The position numbers and the translations under genes were made by a program. A DNA stretch of 64,000 nucleotides. Origin: Halorubrum sp. CBA1229. GTDB taxonomy: Archaea > Halobacteriota > Halobacteria > Halobacteriales > Haloferacaceae. Every line of letters begins with the position of its first letter. Positions within the stretch are counted from its first letter, which is position 1. The notes under the pieces were generated by a model. The model saw only the letters and a list, made by a program, of their open reading frames with translations. It was not told the DNA's origin and searched no databases. The DNA lies in NCBI RefSeq assembly GCF_003721435.2, contig NZ_CP054585.1, positions 2,728,001 through 2,792,000 of the forward strand, read 5' to 3'. Below are positions 46,539-61,213 of this stretch, one piece after another.

Positions 46539-47554
46539 CGGTCGGAGTCACCGGGCTCGGGACGTACGTCCCGCCCGATACGATCGCCGGCGCGGAGATC
46601 GCCGAAATCAGCGGGATTCCCGAAGAAGTGGTCGTCGAGAAGATGGGCGTGACGGAGAAACACGTCTGCCCGCCCGACGGCGACCACGCGACGGACATGG
46701 CCGAGACGGCGGCCCGCGAGGCGCTCGCGGACGCCGACGTCGACCCGGGTGACGTCGACCTCCTCTTATATCACGGCTCGGAGTTCAAAGACCACGTCGT
46801 GTGGTCGGCCGCGGCCGCGATCTGCGAGGCGCTCGGCGCCGAGAACGCCTACGCCACCGAAAGCTACACGCTCTGTGCGGGCGCGCCGATCGCGCTCCGA
46901 CAGGCGAGGGCCCAGCTCGCGGTCGAGGAGGCCGACACCGCGCTGCTCGTTTCGGCGAGCCGCGAGGAGGACCTCGTCGACTACAGGGACGAGGACGCGT
47001 CGTTCATGTTCAACTTCGGGAGCGGCGCGAGCGCGTTCGTCGTCGAGTCCGACCCCGGCGACCGGGCCCGCGCGACGGTCCACGAGAGCGCGGCCGAGAC
47101 CGACGGCTCCTTCGCCGACGACGTGGTGATGCCGGCGGGCGGGTCGAAGCGCCCCCCGAGCGAGGCGACGGTGCGTGAGGGGCTCCACACGCTTCAGGTC
47201 CCCGACCCGGACGGAATGAAAGAACGGCTCGGCCCGGTCTCGCTGCCGGCGTTCCTGTCGGTCGCCGATGAGGCGCTGTCGCGCTCGGGATTCGACCGCG
47301 GCGACCTCGACTTCGTCGCGCTCACGCACATGAAGCGGTCGTTCCACGACCGCGTGTTGGCGGAGCTCGGGCTCGACCCCGAGCGGCACGGGTACTACCT
47401 CGACGAGTACGGTCACGTCCAGAGCGTCGATCAGGCGCTCGCCGTCGAGGAGGGGATCGCCGACGGTCGGCTCGCCGCCGGCGACCTCGTCTGCTTCCTC
47501 GCCGCGGGCACCGGGTACACGTGGGCGGCGACGGTGCTTCGCTGGCACGGGTGA
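46535..47554 (+). CDS. Ketoacyl-ACP synthase III-like (thiolase-fold) enzyme in ABC importer operon
   Basis: 339 residues. The thiolase-fold pattern of KAS III/HMG-CoA synthase is clear: VTGLGTYVPPDTIAGAEIAE, MGVTEKHVCPPDGDHATDMAETAAREAL, active Cys114 in ESYTLCAGAPIAL, GSGASAFVVES, and the second catalytic residue His265 in VALTHMKRSFHDRV. In classic KAS III the third catalytic Asn lies in YGNTSAAS; here this segment reads EYGHVQSVDQALAV with His294. So the triad is Cys-His-His. The enzyme may therefore be a divergent condensing enzyme or acyltransferase. It overlaps livM by 4 bases, making it the last gene of the importer operon. Substrate unknown. Confidence 0.85.
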   Translation: MTVGVTGLGTYVPPDTIAGAEIAEISGIPEEVVVEKMGVTEKHVCPPDGDHATDMAETAAREALADADVDPGDVDLLLYHGSEFKDHVVWSAAAAICEALGAENAYATESYTLCAGAPIALRQARAQLAVEEADTALLVSASREEDLVDYRDEDASFMFNFGSGASAFVVESDPGDRARATVHESAAETDGSFADDVVMPAGGSKRPPSEATVREGLHTLQVPDPDGMKERLGPVSLPAFLSVADEALSRSGFDRGDLDFVALTHMKRSFHDRVLAELGLDPERHGYYLDEYGHVQSVDQALAVEEGIADGRLAAGDLVCFLAAGTGYTWAATVLRWHG

Positions 47555-47617
47555 GCTGATTTATAAGTGAGCGACGCGGTAGCCGCGTCACTCCCTTCGC
47601 GGTCACTCCTTTCGCCG

Positions 47618-48022
47618 CTATTCCTCGTGCGCCAGCGAGAGGACGGTCGCCTCGCCGTCGAGGACGCGCTCGTCGCGCGCGTCGACGAACGCCTCCGTCC
47701 GCACTCGGAGCCGGTCGCCGCCGAGGTCCTCGACCACCTCGACCGCGGCCCGGACCGCCTCGCCCGGGCGGACGGGGGCGTCGAAGGTGAGCTCCTGTTC
47801 GAGGTAGATGATATCGCCCGGGAGCGACGCGAGCGCCGCCGAGACCGCGGCGGCCGACAGCATTCCGTGCGCGACGCGTCCGCCGAACATCGTCTCCGCG
47901 GCGTACGCGTCGTCGAGGTGGATCGGGTTCTCGTCGCCGGAGAGCTCGGCGAACGCGTCGATCGCTTCCGCCGTGACCTGTACCTCGTGGGACGCCGTCT
48001 CGCCGACGCTCGCGACTGGCAT
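47618..48022 (-). CDS. MaoC-like dehydratase / hot-dog fold protein
   Basis: 134 residues. The (R)-specific enoyl-CoA hydratase-like motif is VTAEAIDAFAELSGDENPIHLDDAYAAETMFGGRVAHGMLSAAAVSAAL, with Asp and His of the 'D-x4-H' catalytic pair (GDENPIHLDD) conserved. C-terminal strands are LEQELTFDAPVRPGEAVRAAVEVVE and LRVRTEAFVDARDERVLDGEATVLSL. It hydrates enoyl-CoA compounds, for example in fatty acid or side-chain breakdown. It converges with the KAS III-like gene (63 bases between the stop codons) and is divergent from the PhoU-like gene. Its presence next to an acyl-CoA synthetase and importer fits a CoA-dependent pathway, inferred. Confidence 0.88.
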   Translation of the reverse strand: MPVASVGETASHEVQVTAEAIDAFAELSGDENPIHLDDAYAAETMFGGRVAHGMLSAAAVSAALASLPGDIIYLEQELTFDAPVRPGEAVRAAVEVVEDLGGDRLRVRTEAFVDARDERVLDGEATVLSLAHEE

Positions 48023-51025: not shown

Positions 51026-51745
51026 ATGCGACTCGCACGCCTGCTCACGCCGGACGGGCCGGTCTTCGGACGCTACGAGGACGGGACAATCGTCGCGGAC
51101 GACGGCCGCTACGAGGTCGGCCGCGACGGGCGGCTCCTCCCGCCCTGCGACCCGAGCGCGCTCTACTGCGTCGGGCGGAACTACGTCGAGACGCTCGACC
51201 AGATGGCGTACGAGCGCCCGGAGGAGCCGGACTTCTTCATCAAGCCGCCGGCGAGCCTGCTCGCGCACGGCGAGCCGATCGCGTACCCCGACTGGACCGA
51301 CGAGCTGACGTACGCCGGCGAGCTCGTCGCCGTCATCGACGAGCGCTGCCGCGACCTCGACCCCGAGGACGTCCTGGAGGTCGTCCGCGGCTACACGATC
51401 ATGAACGACGTCGACGCACTCGACCAGCAGGGCCGGACCGCGCGGAAGGCGTTCGACGGCTCCGCGCCCCTCGGGCCGTGGATCGAGACGGACGTCGACC
51501 CGACGAACCTCGACATCTCGACGACGGTCGGCGGGGAACAGCGCCAGGACGCCAACACCGAGCTGATGCTGTTCGGGCCCCACGAGATCGTCTCGTACCT
51601 CTCCGAGCGGTTCACGTTCGAGCCCGGCGACTGCGTCGCCTTCGGCAGCCCGGCGAACCCCGGGCTCGTCGAGCCCGGCGAGCGCGTCGAGATCACCTAC
51701 GAGGGCGTCGGGACGCTCTCGAACCGAGTCGTCGACAGGGAGTAG
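51026..51745 (+). CDS. Fumarylacetoacetate hydrolase (FAH) family protein
   Basis: 239 residues. The FAH fold is read from ALYCVGRNYVETLDQMAYERPEEPDFFIKPPASLLAHGEPIAYPDWTDELTYAGELVAVIDERCRDLDPEDVLEVVRGYTIMNDVDALDQQGRTARKAFDGSAPLGPWIET. Metal ligands E-x-E-D (TYAGELVAVI region and NDVDALD) appear to be present, and the C-terminus FEPGDCVAFGSPANPGLVEPGERVEITYEGVGTLSNRV is typical. Family members cleave C-C bonds or isomerise keto acids in aromatic or sugar breakdown. It ends before the structured intergenic element. The start ATG at 51026 is preceded by a cgccttttcgacgcc promoter-like run. Confidence 0.88.
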   Translation: MRLARLLTPDGPVFGRYEDGTIVADDGRYEVGRDGRLLPPCDPSALYCVGRNYVETLDQMAYERPEEPDFFIKPPASLLAHGEPIAYPDWTDELTYAGELVAVIDERCRDLDPEDVLEVVRGYTIMNDVDALDQQGRTARKAFDGSAPLGPWIETDVDPTNLDISTTVGGEQRQDANTELMLFGPHEIVSYLSERFTFEPGDCVAFGSPANPGLVEPGERVEITYEGVGTLSNRVVDRE

Positions 51746-51770
51746 GTGCGAAGTTCGAGGAACCCATTTA

Positions 51771-52202
51771 AAAAGACGCGGTTGGCGTGCGCCTGCTCGC
51801 GCGCCGAAGGGCGCGAGCAGACCGCACGAGGGAGTCGGACCGGCGCAGCCGCGCCGGTCCGACGAGGCTGGGGAGGCGTGAGGTGCTGTGCGGGGCGGGA
51901 CTCAAAGGAGCAGGCGTGAGGCGGGCGCAGGCGTTCACGAGAGCTTTGCTCTCGTGAGCCAATCAGAACGCGGAGCGTTCTGATGACGACGTAAGCACTG
52001 CAGGGAGCGAACGAAGTGAGCGACCGAAGCGCGTGGTTCGAAACGGCTTCGCCGTTTCGTCATCGCCGAAAATCTCTGATTTCCGGCTAGCAGTCAGAAT
52101 CCGATGGATTCTGACGACATCACGAAAGGCGCAGAGCGCCTTTCGAACGACAGCGAACGTGCGCCCGCCTCACGGCTGGGGCTTTGGACGTGTTCGCTGT
52201 CG
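51771..52202. other. Structured intergenic element of seven hairpins (possible ncRNA or repeat element)
   Basis: In the gap between the FAH and DUF418 genes (51746-52256), seven inverted repeats: arms at 51793-51802/51811-51820 (10 bp), 51834-51846/51851-51863 (13 bp), 51935-51944/51948-51957 (10 bp), 51962-51971/51975-51984 (10 bp), 52039-52047/52051-52059 (9 bp), 52093-52102/52106-52115 (10 bp), 52123-52132/52136-52145 (10 bp), all perfect, loops of 3-8 bases. Two longer pairings (51915-51929 with 52160-52174; 52148-52158 with 52192-52202) also exist. No convincing protein frame. An atttaaaaag box sits just upstream (51768-51777). Confidence 0.6.
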
Positions 52203-52256
52203 ATCCAGTATCGATTATTTATAAGTGAGCCGCTGGAGTACAGCCCGGGAATCTGA

Positions 52257-53477
52257 TTAGTCCGGATTTCTCATGGGCTGCCGTTCGCCGTACGTCAGGG
52301 TCCGCCAGACCCACTCGACGGGGCCGAACCGATAGCGCTTGAGCCACGCCACCGACAGCACCACCTGCACGACCCAGATCGCGAGGACGATCCCGTACTG
52401 CTCGACGCGGGTCACGGAGCCGAACAGGCCGAGGCCGTGGCCGTAGAAGATCGAGGTCGCGAGCACGGTCTGGAGCAGGTAGTTCGTGAAGGCGGTCCGA
52501 CCGACGGCGGCGAAGGTCCTCGTCACCGGCCCCTCCGGGCGCCGCTTCGCGTACAGCATGACGAGCCCGAGGTAGCCGCCGGCGACGAGGAGGCTCCCGA
52601 CGTAGTTGAACTGCCGCCAGTACAGCGCGGCGCCCGCGCTCCAGTCGTTGGCCTCGATGTAGGCGACGCCGGCGACGACGATCGCGACGCCGACGACCCC
52701 GCCGGCGACGAGTCGTTTATAAAACCCCGCCGAGCGCTCGCCGGTCAGCACGCCCCAGCGGTACAGCGCCATCCCGAGGAGCATCACGCCGCCGATCCGC
52801 CAGAAGCTGGAGCCGATGAAGCCGGTCGTCTGCCGCTGGAACGAGGCGGAGACGCGGTGGTCCATCTGCGCCAGCCAGCCGCTCCGATAGGTCGCCACCT
52901 CCTGACGCAACGCGGCCTCGCTCGGCGCCCACTGGGACGCGATCGCGTCGCCGCCGATGCTGACCGCGGCGAACAGCTCCGTGGCGGGGACGAACAGGAG
53001 GAAGATCCCGCCGAGCGCCGCGAGCCGCGTCGCGTCCAGGTCGCGGAGCGAGATCAGGAACAGCCCCGTGAACCCGTAGGCGACGAGGATGTCGCCGTAC
53101 CACAGCAGGTACGCGTGCATGAGCCCGATCGCGATGAGGGCCGCGGTCCGCCGGTAGTGGAGCCGGACCGCGTCCTGGCCCTTCTCCTCTTTGCTGTCGA
53201 CGAACAGCAGGACCCCGGCGCCGAACAGCGCCGAGAACAGCGTGATGAGCTTCGACTGCGCGAACACGTGGCCGGCGAACCACGCCCAGTAGTTCGCGCC
53301 CGTGAAGTCGCCGTAGGCGGCGGCGTCCGCGTAGACGGTGGGGTTCAACAGGCTCGCCTCCGGCATCGCGAACACCCAGACGTTGATGAGCAAGATTCCG
53401 AGGAGGGCGAAGCCTCTGAGCGCGTCGAGGCTGACGATGCGTTCGGAGGGGGGCGTCGGACCGGCGTCGCGTGTCAC
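52257..53477 (-). CDS. DUF418 family membrane protein
   Basis: 406 residues from a GTG at 53477. The start is VTRDAGPTPPSERIVSLDALRGFALLGILLINVWVFAMPEAS, the conserved DUF418/acyltransferase-like opening (SLDALRGFALLGILLIN). About nine membrane segments follow, with YRRTAALIAIGLMHAYLLWYGDILVAYGFTGLFLI and the C-terminal DUF418 block VGRTAFTNYLLQTVLATSIFYGHGLGLFG and WLKRYRFGPVEWVWRTLTYGE, which is typical. The role is unknown; similar proteins are linked to transport or lipid metabolism. Inside the gene, a gtttataaaacc run (52713-52724) encodes GFYKRL with AT-rich codons unlike its neighbours. Confidence 0.88.
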   Translation of the reverse strand: MTRDAGPTPPSERIVSLDALRGFALLGILLINVWVFAMPEASLLNPTVYADAAAYGDFTGANYWAWFAGHVFAQSKLITLFSALFGAGVLLFVDSKEEKGQDAVRLHYRRTAALIAIGLMHAYLLWYGDILVAYGFTGLFLISLRDLDATRLAALGGIFLLFVPATELFAAVSIGGDAIASQWAPSEAALRQEVATYRSGWLAQMDHRVSASFQRQTTGFIGSSFWRIGGVMLLGMALYRWGVLTGERSAGFYKRLVAGGVVGVAIVVAGVAYIEANDWSAGAALYWRQFNYVGSLLVAGGYLGLVMLYAKRRPEGPVTRTFAAVGRTAFTNYLLQTVLATSIFYGHGLGLFGSVTRVEQYGIVLAIWVVQVVLSVAWLKRYRFGPVEWVWRTLTYGERQPMRNPD

Positions 53478-60420: not shown

Positions 60421-60490
60421 TAGAACCGATTCGGGCGCGACGCTGAAAGGGGTAGCGTCCGCGGGCGGGAGGGGTGGTACGGCCCGGCTG

Positions 60491-61213
60491 TCAGCGACCG
60501 GAGCGCCCGTGACAGCCGCGGGAGGTGATCGCGTCCTTCGACCGGAACCGGCAGCCGCAGTCGGCACAGCGGACGTACGGCTCGCCGGGTTCGGTCTTCA
60601 GGCGGTGGTCGCCGACGACGAACGGGCGAGTCACGGTCCGGGGGCGGATCCGGTCCGGGATCGGCGTCGAGGACGACTCGCTGAGCGCCGCTCGCACGGC
60701 GATGGTGTCGACGTCGACGGGGTCCCATCGGCGGGCGTCGAGGGCCGCCTCGCGGTCGGCCACCTCGGTCCAGCCGGTGACGACGACGGGGGAGTTCGTC
60801 TCCGTGTCGCCGACGACGACGACGAACCGGATCCCGCCCTCGACGAGGGCGAACCGCCAGCCGTCGGTCCGGTTCCACCGGAGCTGTCCGCGCCGGATCG
60901 CGTCGCTCACGGTGCGGGTCGAGACGTAGCGACCGGGCTGTTCGAGCCGGTCGCGGAAGTGATCGGTGAGCGCGTAGAGCCCCGGGTCGCGGATCGGCGG
61001 GTCCTCCGCGGTTCGCGCGACCGAGGACCGTCGGTCCGAAGCGGAGTTCCGGCGCCGCGAGTCGCCTGTCTCCGGGTCGAAGGGGAGGGAATCCGACCTC
61101 GCCGCCCGCCGGCGAGACCCCGCCGGCGCGGTCGTGGACGCGGTCCGACGCTCCGTCGTCGATCCGGGACGGGGCGACTCGCCGTCCCCCGGCCCGCCCT
61201 GTCGGGATGCCAC
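60491..61213 (-). CDS. Hypothetical protein with C-terminal Cys-rich motif
   Basis: 240 residues. The first 70 are basic and disordered (Arg, Ser, Thr, Pro rich), unusual for haloarchaea. The core has RDPGLYALTDHFRDRLEQPGRYVSTRTVSDAIRRGQLRWNRTDGWRFALVEGGIRFVVVVGDTETNSPVVVTGWTEVADREAALDARRWDPVDVDTIAVRAAL, an alpha/beta domain. The C-terminus reads YVRCADCGCRFRSKDAITSRGCHGR, with four Cys and one His that could bind zinc. I do not recognise the family. It is on the same strand as the XPB gene with 70 bases between, so a shared transcript is possible. The real start may be later, because the first 70 residues are poorly structured. Confidence 0.6.
   Translation of the reverse strand: MASRQGGPGDGESPRPGSTTERRTASTTAPAGSRRRAARSDSLPFDPETGDSRRRNSASDRRSSVARTAEDPPIRDPGLYALTDHFRDRLEQPGRYVSTRTVSDAIRRGQLRWNRTDGWRFALVEGGIRFVVVVGDTETNSPVVVTGWTEVADREAALDARRWDPVDVDTIAVRAALSESSSTPIPDRIRPRTVTRPFVVGDHRLKTEPGEPYVRCADCGCRFRSKDAITSRGCHGRSGR

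Follow-up and report, generated by a model that had tools for sequence, protein, structure and literature searches.

The hairpin block in the gap 51746-52256

The window analysed here, a stretch of 64,000 nucleotides from Halorubrum sp. CBA1229, holds a hairpin-rich gap at 51746-52256. The gap is flanked upstream by a gene at 51026-51745 (+), which we take from its sequence to be FAA-hydrolase-like, and downstream by a gene at 52257-53477 (-) that presumably encodes a DUF418-like membrane protein, likewise recognised from sequence. The initial annotation had described seven perfect stem-loops and no protein frame in this gap. We found no such frame either, and every one of the seven stems was confirmed with exact complementarity: a 13-bp stem with a loop of 4 (51834-51863), four 10-bp stems with loops of 3 (51935-51957, 51962-51984, 52093-52115, and 52123-52145), a 9-bp stem with a loop of 3 (52039-52059), and a 10-bp stem enclosing an 8-base loop (51793-51802/51811-51820, part of the hairpin called H1 below). 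Perfect stems of at least 9 bp with loops of 3-4 bases numbered six, against a mean of 0.004 and a maximum of 1 in 500 dinucleotide shuffles, which agrees with the earlier judgement that a chance origin was implausible. Across the window, no other 432-nt stretch comes close to this stem density. RNA folding gave z scores of -8.3 (+) and -9.2 (-), and no shuffle folded equally well.

Two long-range pairings had also been proposed. The 15-base pair 51915-51929/52160-52174 is exact and corresponds to the conserved closing stem of the repeat family described below. The 11-base pair 52148-52158/52192-52202 is exact too, but it is peculiar to the window copy: the consensus 3' motif GTTCACCGTC does not pair in other copies, and we thus treated this pairing as incidental rather than as a family feature. 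The parts of the window copy, all on the + strand, are as follows.

51766-51775, +: AT-rich box ATTTAAAAAG, defined by the position profile and present in the window copy
51778-51833, +: 5' domain hairpin H1 (outer stem 51787-51791/51823-51827, inner stem 51793-51802/51811-51820) followed by CGAGGGA; its pairs covary across 61 copies
51834-51863, +: hairpin H2, a perfect 13-bp stem whose sequence varies between copies while pairing is kept
51864-51896, +: G-rich conserved joint beginning with GAGGCTGGGGAGG, near-invariant in the aligned copies
51897-51913, +: core motif GGGACTCAAAGGAGCAG; CAAAG at 51903-51907 pairs with CTTTG at 52182-52186 (class-wide form GACTGAAAGGGGC / GGGGCTTTC)
51915-51929, +: 5' arm of the closing stem (15 bp), with strong compensatory changes in the family alignments
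51934-51988, +: inserted double-hairpin module TCACGAGAGC..GCTCTCGTGA gcca ATCAGAACGC..GCGTTCTGAT
51989-52033, +: conserved apical GA-rich stem AAGCAC..GGGAGCGAAC..GTGAGCGACCGAAGCGCG, in which 2-bp helices alternate with GA/GA mismatches
52034-52150, +: second run of inserted modules, with hairpins at 52039-52059, 52065-52088 (imperfect), 52093-52115, and 52123-52145; absent, shorter, or different at the same point of other copies
52160-52174, +: 3' arm of the closing stem (15 bp)
52175-52190, +: 3' conserved motif CTGGGGCTTTGG, at the base of the closing helix
52191-52230, +: 3' unit with a second AT box ATTTATAAG at 52217-52225; in other copies, tandem repeats with a period of ~57 bp

A dispersed repeat family of Halobacteria

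A DNA search with the gap sequence (51746-52256) returned 172 matching pieces at dozens of places in the same genome, as well as matches in 87 of 97 relatives. A covariance model (R1) built from a 61-copy core alignment gave 98 matches in the genome. Every one of them lies on the 3.22 Mb chromosome; the second replicon (G000:C2, ~364 kb) has no copy, against about 11 expected by length. R1 matches were found in 306 of 391 sampled Halobacteria genomes and in none of the other 85; copy numbers vary greatly, with 94 in genome G081, 71 in G270, and one passing match in some Halorubrum. The earlier suspicion that related sequences recur in other haloarchaeal genomes as a repeat family was therefore correct, with ~98 copies in the genome itself and a class-wide distribution.

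Forty aligned copies from this genome share a common order of parts, namely, an AT box, H1, CGAGGGA, H2, GAGGCTGGGGAGG...GGGACTCAAAGGGGCAG, the closing stem, the apical GA-rich stem, the closing stem again, CTGGGGCTTTGGAGGTGTTCACC, and one to five ~57-bp units ending in a second TTTATAA box. A TTTATAA-like box is seen in many units, and in one copy (L072, G000:C1:2615795-2616285) four nearly identical 57-bp units stand in tandem behind the 3' motif. Loci with the core motif GGGACTCAAAGGGGCAG that come from named genomes are all from Halorubrum, except for one uncultured-archaeon MAG. Most genera carry a short form of ~132 nt, GTGGGACTGAAAGGGGC...GGGGGCTTTC; Halorubrum copies, and some from other families, have in addition a 5' domain resembling H1/H2 with GGCTGGGGAGG. 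No gene was found inside the element in ~320 distinct copies, and an autonomous, gene-carrying version was accordingly dropped as a candidate.

Copies are dispersed along the chromosome with Poisson-like spacing (CV 0.995 versus 0.984 for random placement), and neither even spacing nor orientation blocks were detected along it. Of 182 Halorubrum cases, 122 have a downstream gene that faces the element and 77 are flanked by convergent genes. Copies thus avoid promoter sides, as would result from the loss of insertions there. The short form is rare on public plasmids (35 places in 27 records). Viral carriage found no support, as IMG/VR contains no exact core match. Head-to-head inverted pairs are frequent in G081 (L269, L331, L334, L336, L337, L346, and L348) and were also seen at L250, L258, L265, and L270 and in other genera; in every case the 5' ends face each other, and the cores are 35-330 nt apart.

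A conserved fold read from one strand

Alignment of the copies indicates that the core is one long imperfect hairpin, built of a conserved foot (GACTGAAAGGGGC / GGGGCTTTC; the foot motif is also given as GACTGAAAG), a variable closing stem, and the GA-rich apical stem. In the core-half alignment of 61 copies (A1), the 30 consensus pairs are paired in 99.2% of cells, 21 of them show double compensatory changes, and the covariation score reaches 0.407 (shuffles, 0.138; sliding the alignment, no more than 0.064). A second alignment (A3) of 41 R1 matches, mostly from genera other than Halorubrum, has 98.3% of pair cells paired and 23 of 30 pairs covarying, with a score of 0.606 versus 0.170, although its fitting to R1 makes it lean towards the model. 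No shuffle attained the observed score for either alignment. Conserved mismatches, consisting of a GGG/GGG loop and tandem GA steps, are kept across the class. Judging from these alignments, the fold is strictly kept and its sequence is quick to change.

The imperfect pairs are strongly asymmetric between strands. G.U cells outnumber A.C cells by 37:5 in A1, 29:1 in A3, and 62:9 in H1, an excess showing that the + strand as read here acts in single-stranded form, which is either RNA or ssDNA. Hairpin H2 shows no such bias (8 G.T and 10 A.C) and may have been shaped by DNA palindrome processes. Covariation beyond controls and G.U tolerance on one strand, both found here, are features of a structured functional RNA, and they suit ssDNA as well. 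Of the initial proposal of a structured ncRNA or interspersed element, the structure is thus upheld by covariation and the repeat by the family, while an RNA unique to the window locus is ruled out by the ~98 genomic copies.

Double-hairpin modules in the core

The apical region GGCG-ACGTAAGCAC is uninterrupted in other copies. In the window copy and some others, a two-hairpin module of ~55 bp, TCACGAGAGCnnnGCTCTCGTGA gcca ATCAGAACGCnnnGCGTTCTGAT, sits exactly at GGCG-ACGTAAGCAC, and further double hairpins are found at other fixed points. Plasmids also carry the first module free of any core, namely those of Haloferax larsenii, Haloterrigena salifodinae, Haloferax mediterranei, and Halostagnicola larsenii (L396, L397, L398, and L399; ~500-580), within or at the start of what we take, by eye, to be an IS6-type transposase gene. 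Since the module occurs free of the core and is present or absent at fixed core positions, these sequences are separate small mobile palindromes, and most inner hairpins of the window copy are double-hairpin modules inserted later. Such palindromes are tiny insertions in their own right, landing in an apical region of the element that tolerates them. In this they match SMR-A-like small mobile repeats, which likewise insert into palindromic or IS elements. The idea that the hairpins form one designed structure was set aside, several of them being separate palindromic modules inserted in the apical region of the core.

Occupancy of sites and evolution of copies

Many element sites are common to Halorubrum species. 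Of the 13 sites that could be read in G035, the closest genome (92% identity over 2.2 kb), 12 hold the element, which implies that movement is slow. The remaining one, the site of copy L066, is empty in G035 and also in G023, the two closest species examined, and presence thus differs between species. Two gaps of the window, 47554-47643 and 60467-60512, are empty here and hold a copy in other Halorubrum (L028/L143 and L104/L135/L029, respectively). At the window's own site, the element has decayed to different degrees: a full copy is present in G011 (L035), the entire closing hairpin has been lost from G035, and G023 retains no more than the first arm of the stem, joined to the 3' motif.

No recent burst of near-identical copies was found, and the median identity among copies of the same genome (76.7%) equals that between copies of different species. 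Across 33 orthologous comparisons, 32% of core pairs differ, compared to 36% for random copies, and the differences comprise 155 compensated double changes versus 44 one-sided breaks. Orthologous copies are thus nearly as different as random ones and compensated changes prevail, a pattern that fits reshuffling among copies; the element would be continually rewritten by recombination between its copies, intact folds being favoured. In one orthologue (L380, G035:C15:4200-5100), the core hairpin carries its entire apical part the other way round between its arms compared with other copies. Neither a target-site duplication nor a precise end was found at the empty sites of several species, whose intergenic flanks are too diverged, and the aligned, approximately placed ends showed no terminal inverted repeats or target duplication.

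Interpretation of the element

We tentatively favour, with a probability of about 0.48, the interpretation of this family as interspersed elements of Halobacteria that are ancient, non-autonomous, and non-coding, with the folded strand as the selected unit and with copies rewritten by recombination among themselves. Selection would act on the fold of one strand (+ here), to which Halorubrum adds a 5' domain made of H1, H2, and GGCTGGGGAGG. A putative enzyme would recognise the folded strand on the rare occasions when the element is copied to a new intergenic site, and continual exchange with other copies would shuffle the sequences of resident elements while intact folds persist. In favour of this reading are the many gene-free, randomly dispersed intergenic copies, their greatly varying number, the empty site of L066, the decay at the window's own site, the constraint on the fold with its strand asymmetry, and the signs of reshuffling among copies. 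Several observations weigh against this interpretation. Besides the missing target-site duplication and precise end, the lack of a recent burst, and the slow movement, no mobilising enzyme was found, and a fold that persists in old, immobile copies suggests selection at the level of the host. Furthermore, mobile elements usually do not avoid plasmids, so the absence of copies from the second replicon and their rarity on plasmids count against a mobile element.

This structure, which covaries strongly, reaches ~100 copies per genome, and occurs in most of the Halobacteria sampled, has apparently not been annotated. Searches by core sequence and topic returned no earlier description in the open-access literature, though one may exist elsewhere. 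Somewhat short of even odds, we consider it a class-wide haloarchaeal RNA or ssDNA family whose copies, at most ~100 in a genome, each conserve the fold, having either a host role or a putative mobilising enzyme that reads a ~130-nt single-strand hairpin, and absent from Rfam and from the mobile-element descriptions checked. As an RNA, it would represent an abundant, previously unrecognised RNA class of haloarchaea; as a mobile element, it would imply a route of propagation that reads hairpins and is independent of Y1 transposases. Either reading is directly testable in tractable haloarchaea. The covariance model would give annotators access to a recurrent part of haloarchaeal intergenic DNA, and the rapid turnover of paired arms at given sites offers a natural experiment on repeat recombination in polyploid archaea.

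The main rival, which we regard as possible though rather unlikely, holds that the copies are multicopy functional structured RNAs or RNA domains, transcribed and acting through a fold that binds a protein or serves in regulation or 3'-end processing. Such a role agrees with the covariation seen across the class and its conserved motifs that are unpaired or mismatched, with the strong excess of G.U over A.C on one strand, with the retention of structure in copies without recent spread, and with the AT box near the 5' end of Halorubrum copies. This box had been read in the initial annotation as a TATA-like promoter for a transcript of ~430 nt. In most Halorubrum copies, TTTATAA starts 12-15 bases before GCGGTGG at the first stem, and the AT fraction at the box reaches 0.78 in a position profile of 143 copies; in the window copy, the box lies ~10 bases upstream of the first stem. 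Archaeal transcription starts ~27 bases from the centre of an AT box, and a transcript would therefore begin inside the 5' arm of H1 rather than before it. The proposed transcript is thus unsupported, the box being too close to the first stem and the short-form copies of other genera showing no AT peak at promoter distance. These short forms can begin ~40-90 nt after the upstream stop codon, and head-to-head cores may be as little as ~35 nt apart with no promoter between them. The weak orientation bias relative to the upstream gene (58%), the loss or deletion of copies at single sites, and the presence of 0 or 1 copies in relatives also argue against functional RNAs. Moreover, the covariance models of Rfam 15 gave no match at the curated threshold (the best were at chance level, with E of 2 or more).

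It is improbable that the copies are instead host DNA elements working through an extruded or single-stranded hairpin, as sites of chromosome organisation, replication restart, or recombination. The restriction to the chromosome (0 of ~11 expected on C2) and the intergenic location in both orientations would suit such sites. Tandem GA mismatches, stable in both DNA and RNA, would also be compatible with a DNA fold. However, spacing is random, orientation shows no block switching along the chromosome, and many related species have no copies or nearly none.

We consider it very unlikely that a Y1 (HUH) transposase mobilises the family in the manner of PATE or REP/RAYT elements. The family does resemble REP/REPIN and PATE/SMR-A (PMC3119063) in its single-strand hairpins with strand polarity, in lying between genes, in forming inverted pairs, and in taking up small palindromic insertions. 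Yet no match to PF01797 (Y1) was found in the element-rich genomes G081 (94 copies), G270 (71), G340, G057, G363, and G159 or in the Halorubrum carriers G004 and G015, while G056, G342, G126, and G052 have many Y1 genes and no element. Dependence on Y1/RAYT was consequently rejected, as co-occurrence does not support it, and the existence of element-rich genomes without Y1 and of Y1-rich genomes without the element argues against mobilisation of the REP/RAYT or PATE kind. The enzyme that would mobilise the element is thus probably not a Y1 (IS200/IS605, RAYT) transposase.

Equally unlikely is the maintenance of perfect stems by a mutational process alone (template switching within palindromes) with no selection on the fold, which would account for the unbiased H2 and for the DNA-level apical inversion in L380 and may apply to H2 and the inserted modules, but which is largely refuted for the core because such correction would erase the GGG/GGG loop and the tandem GA steps, both kept class-wide, and predicts no G.U bias where H1 and the closing stem have one.

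Relation to described elements

Like the REP/REPIN sequences of bacteria with their RAYT, the element is a short, non-coding, imperfect hairpin with strand polarity and many intergenic copies, often in inverted pairs, and its foot (GACTGAAAGGGGC/GGGGCTTTC, with G.U bias) provides a strand-specific motif at the base of a single imperfect hairpin. It differs in size (~130-430 nt, with a core of ~132 nt, against 20-40 nt for REP), in having another foot sequence than a GTAG-type tetranucleotide, in the far greater divergence of its copies, in lacking Y1/RAYT in several copy-rich genomes, and in occurring outside the known range of REP hosts.

PATE and SMR-A are haloarchaeal, palindromic, and non-coding like the element, and in Haloquadratum walsbyi the small SMR-A repeats target the palindromes of PATEs, i.e., small palindromic repeats insert into a larger palindromic element (PMC3119063). 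The double-hairpin modules behave like SMRs, although they measure ~55 bp rather than 110. In contrast to a PATE, which has two near-terminal palindromes, the core is one large hairpin conserved class-wide, and it shows no similarity to the ends of the IS605-type transposons of its own genome. MITEs are likewise dispersed, non-coding, and devoid of transposase, but no terminal inverted repeats or target duplication were seen at the approximately placed ends of the element, whose pairing is internal and strand-asymmetric. The large ornate bacterial RNAs GOLLD, ROOL, and OLE and the structured RNA classes of Rfam share with it a large covarying structure from non-coding DNA; they usually occur in one or a few copies, whereas the element has many and matches no Rfam model.

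We also considered an IS605 right end or omega-RNA, suggested by the 3' motif near TnpB at two loci (L206 and L209). TnpB lies on the other strand there, and the contacts reflect IS insertion into or beside a copy; none of the 14 TnpB loci of the genome has the element as its own end. At L206 (~2490-2520; G000:C1 near 1742600), an IS1341/TnpB-type element lies inside a copy, with the junction GCTGA / AGCGCGCAGCG, and at L209, a second element of this type ends ~20 bp upstream of a copy.
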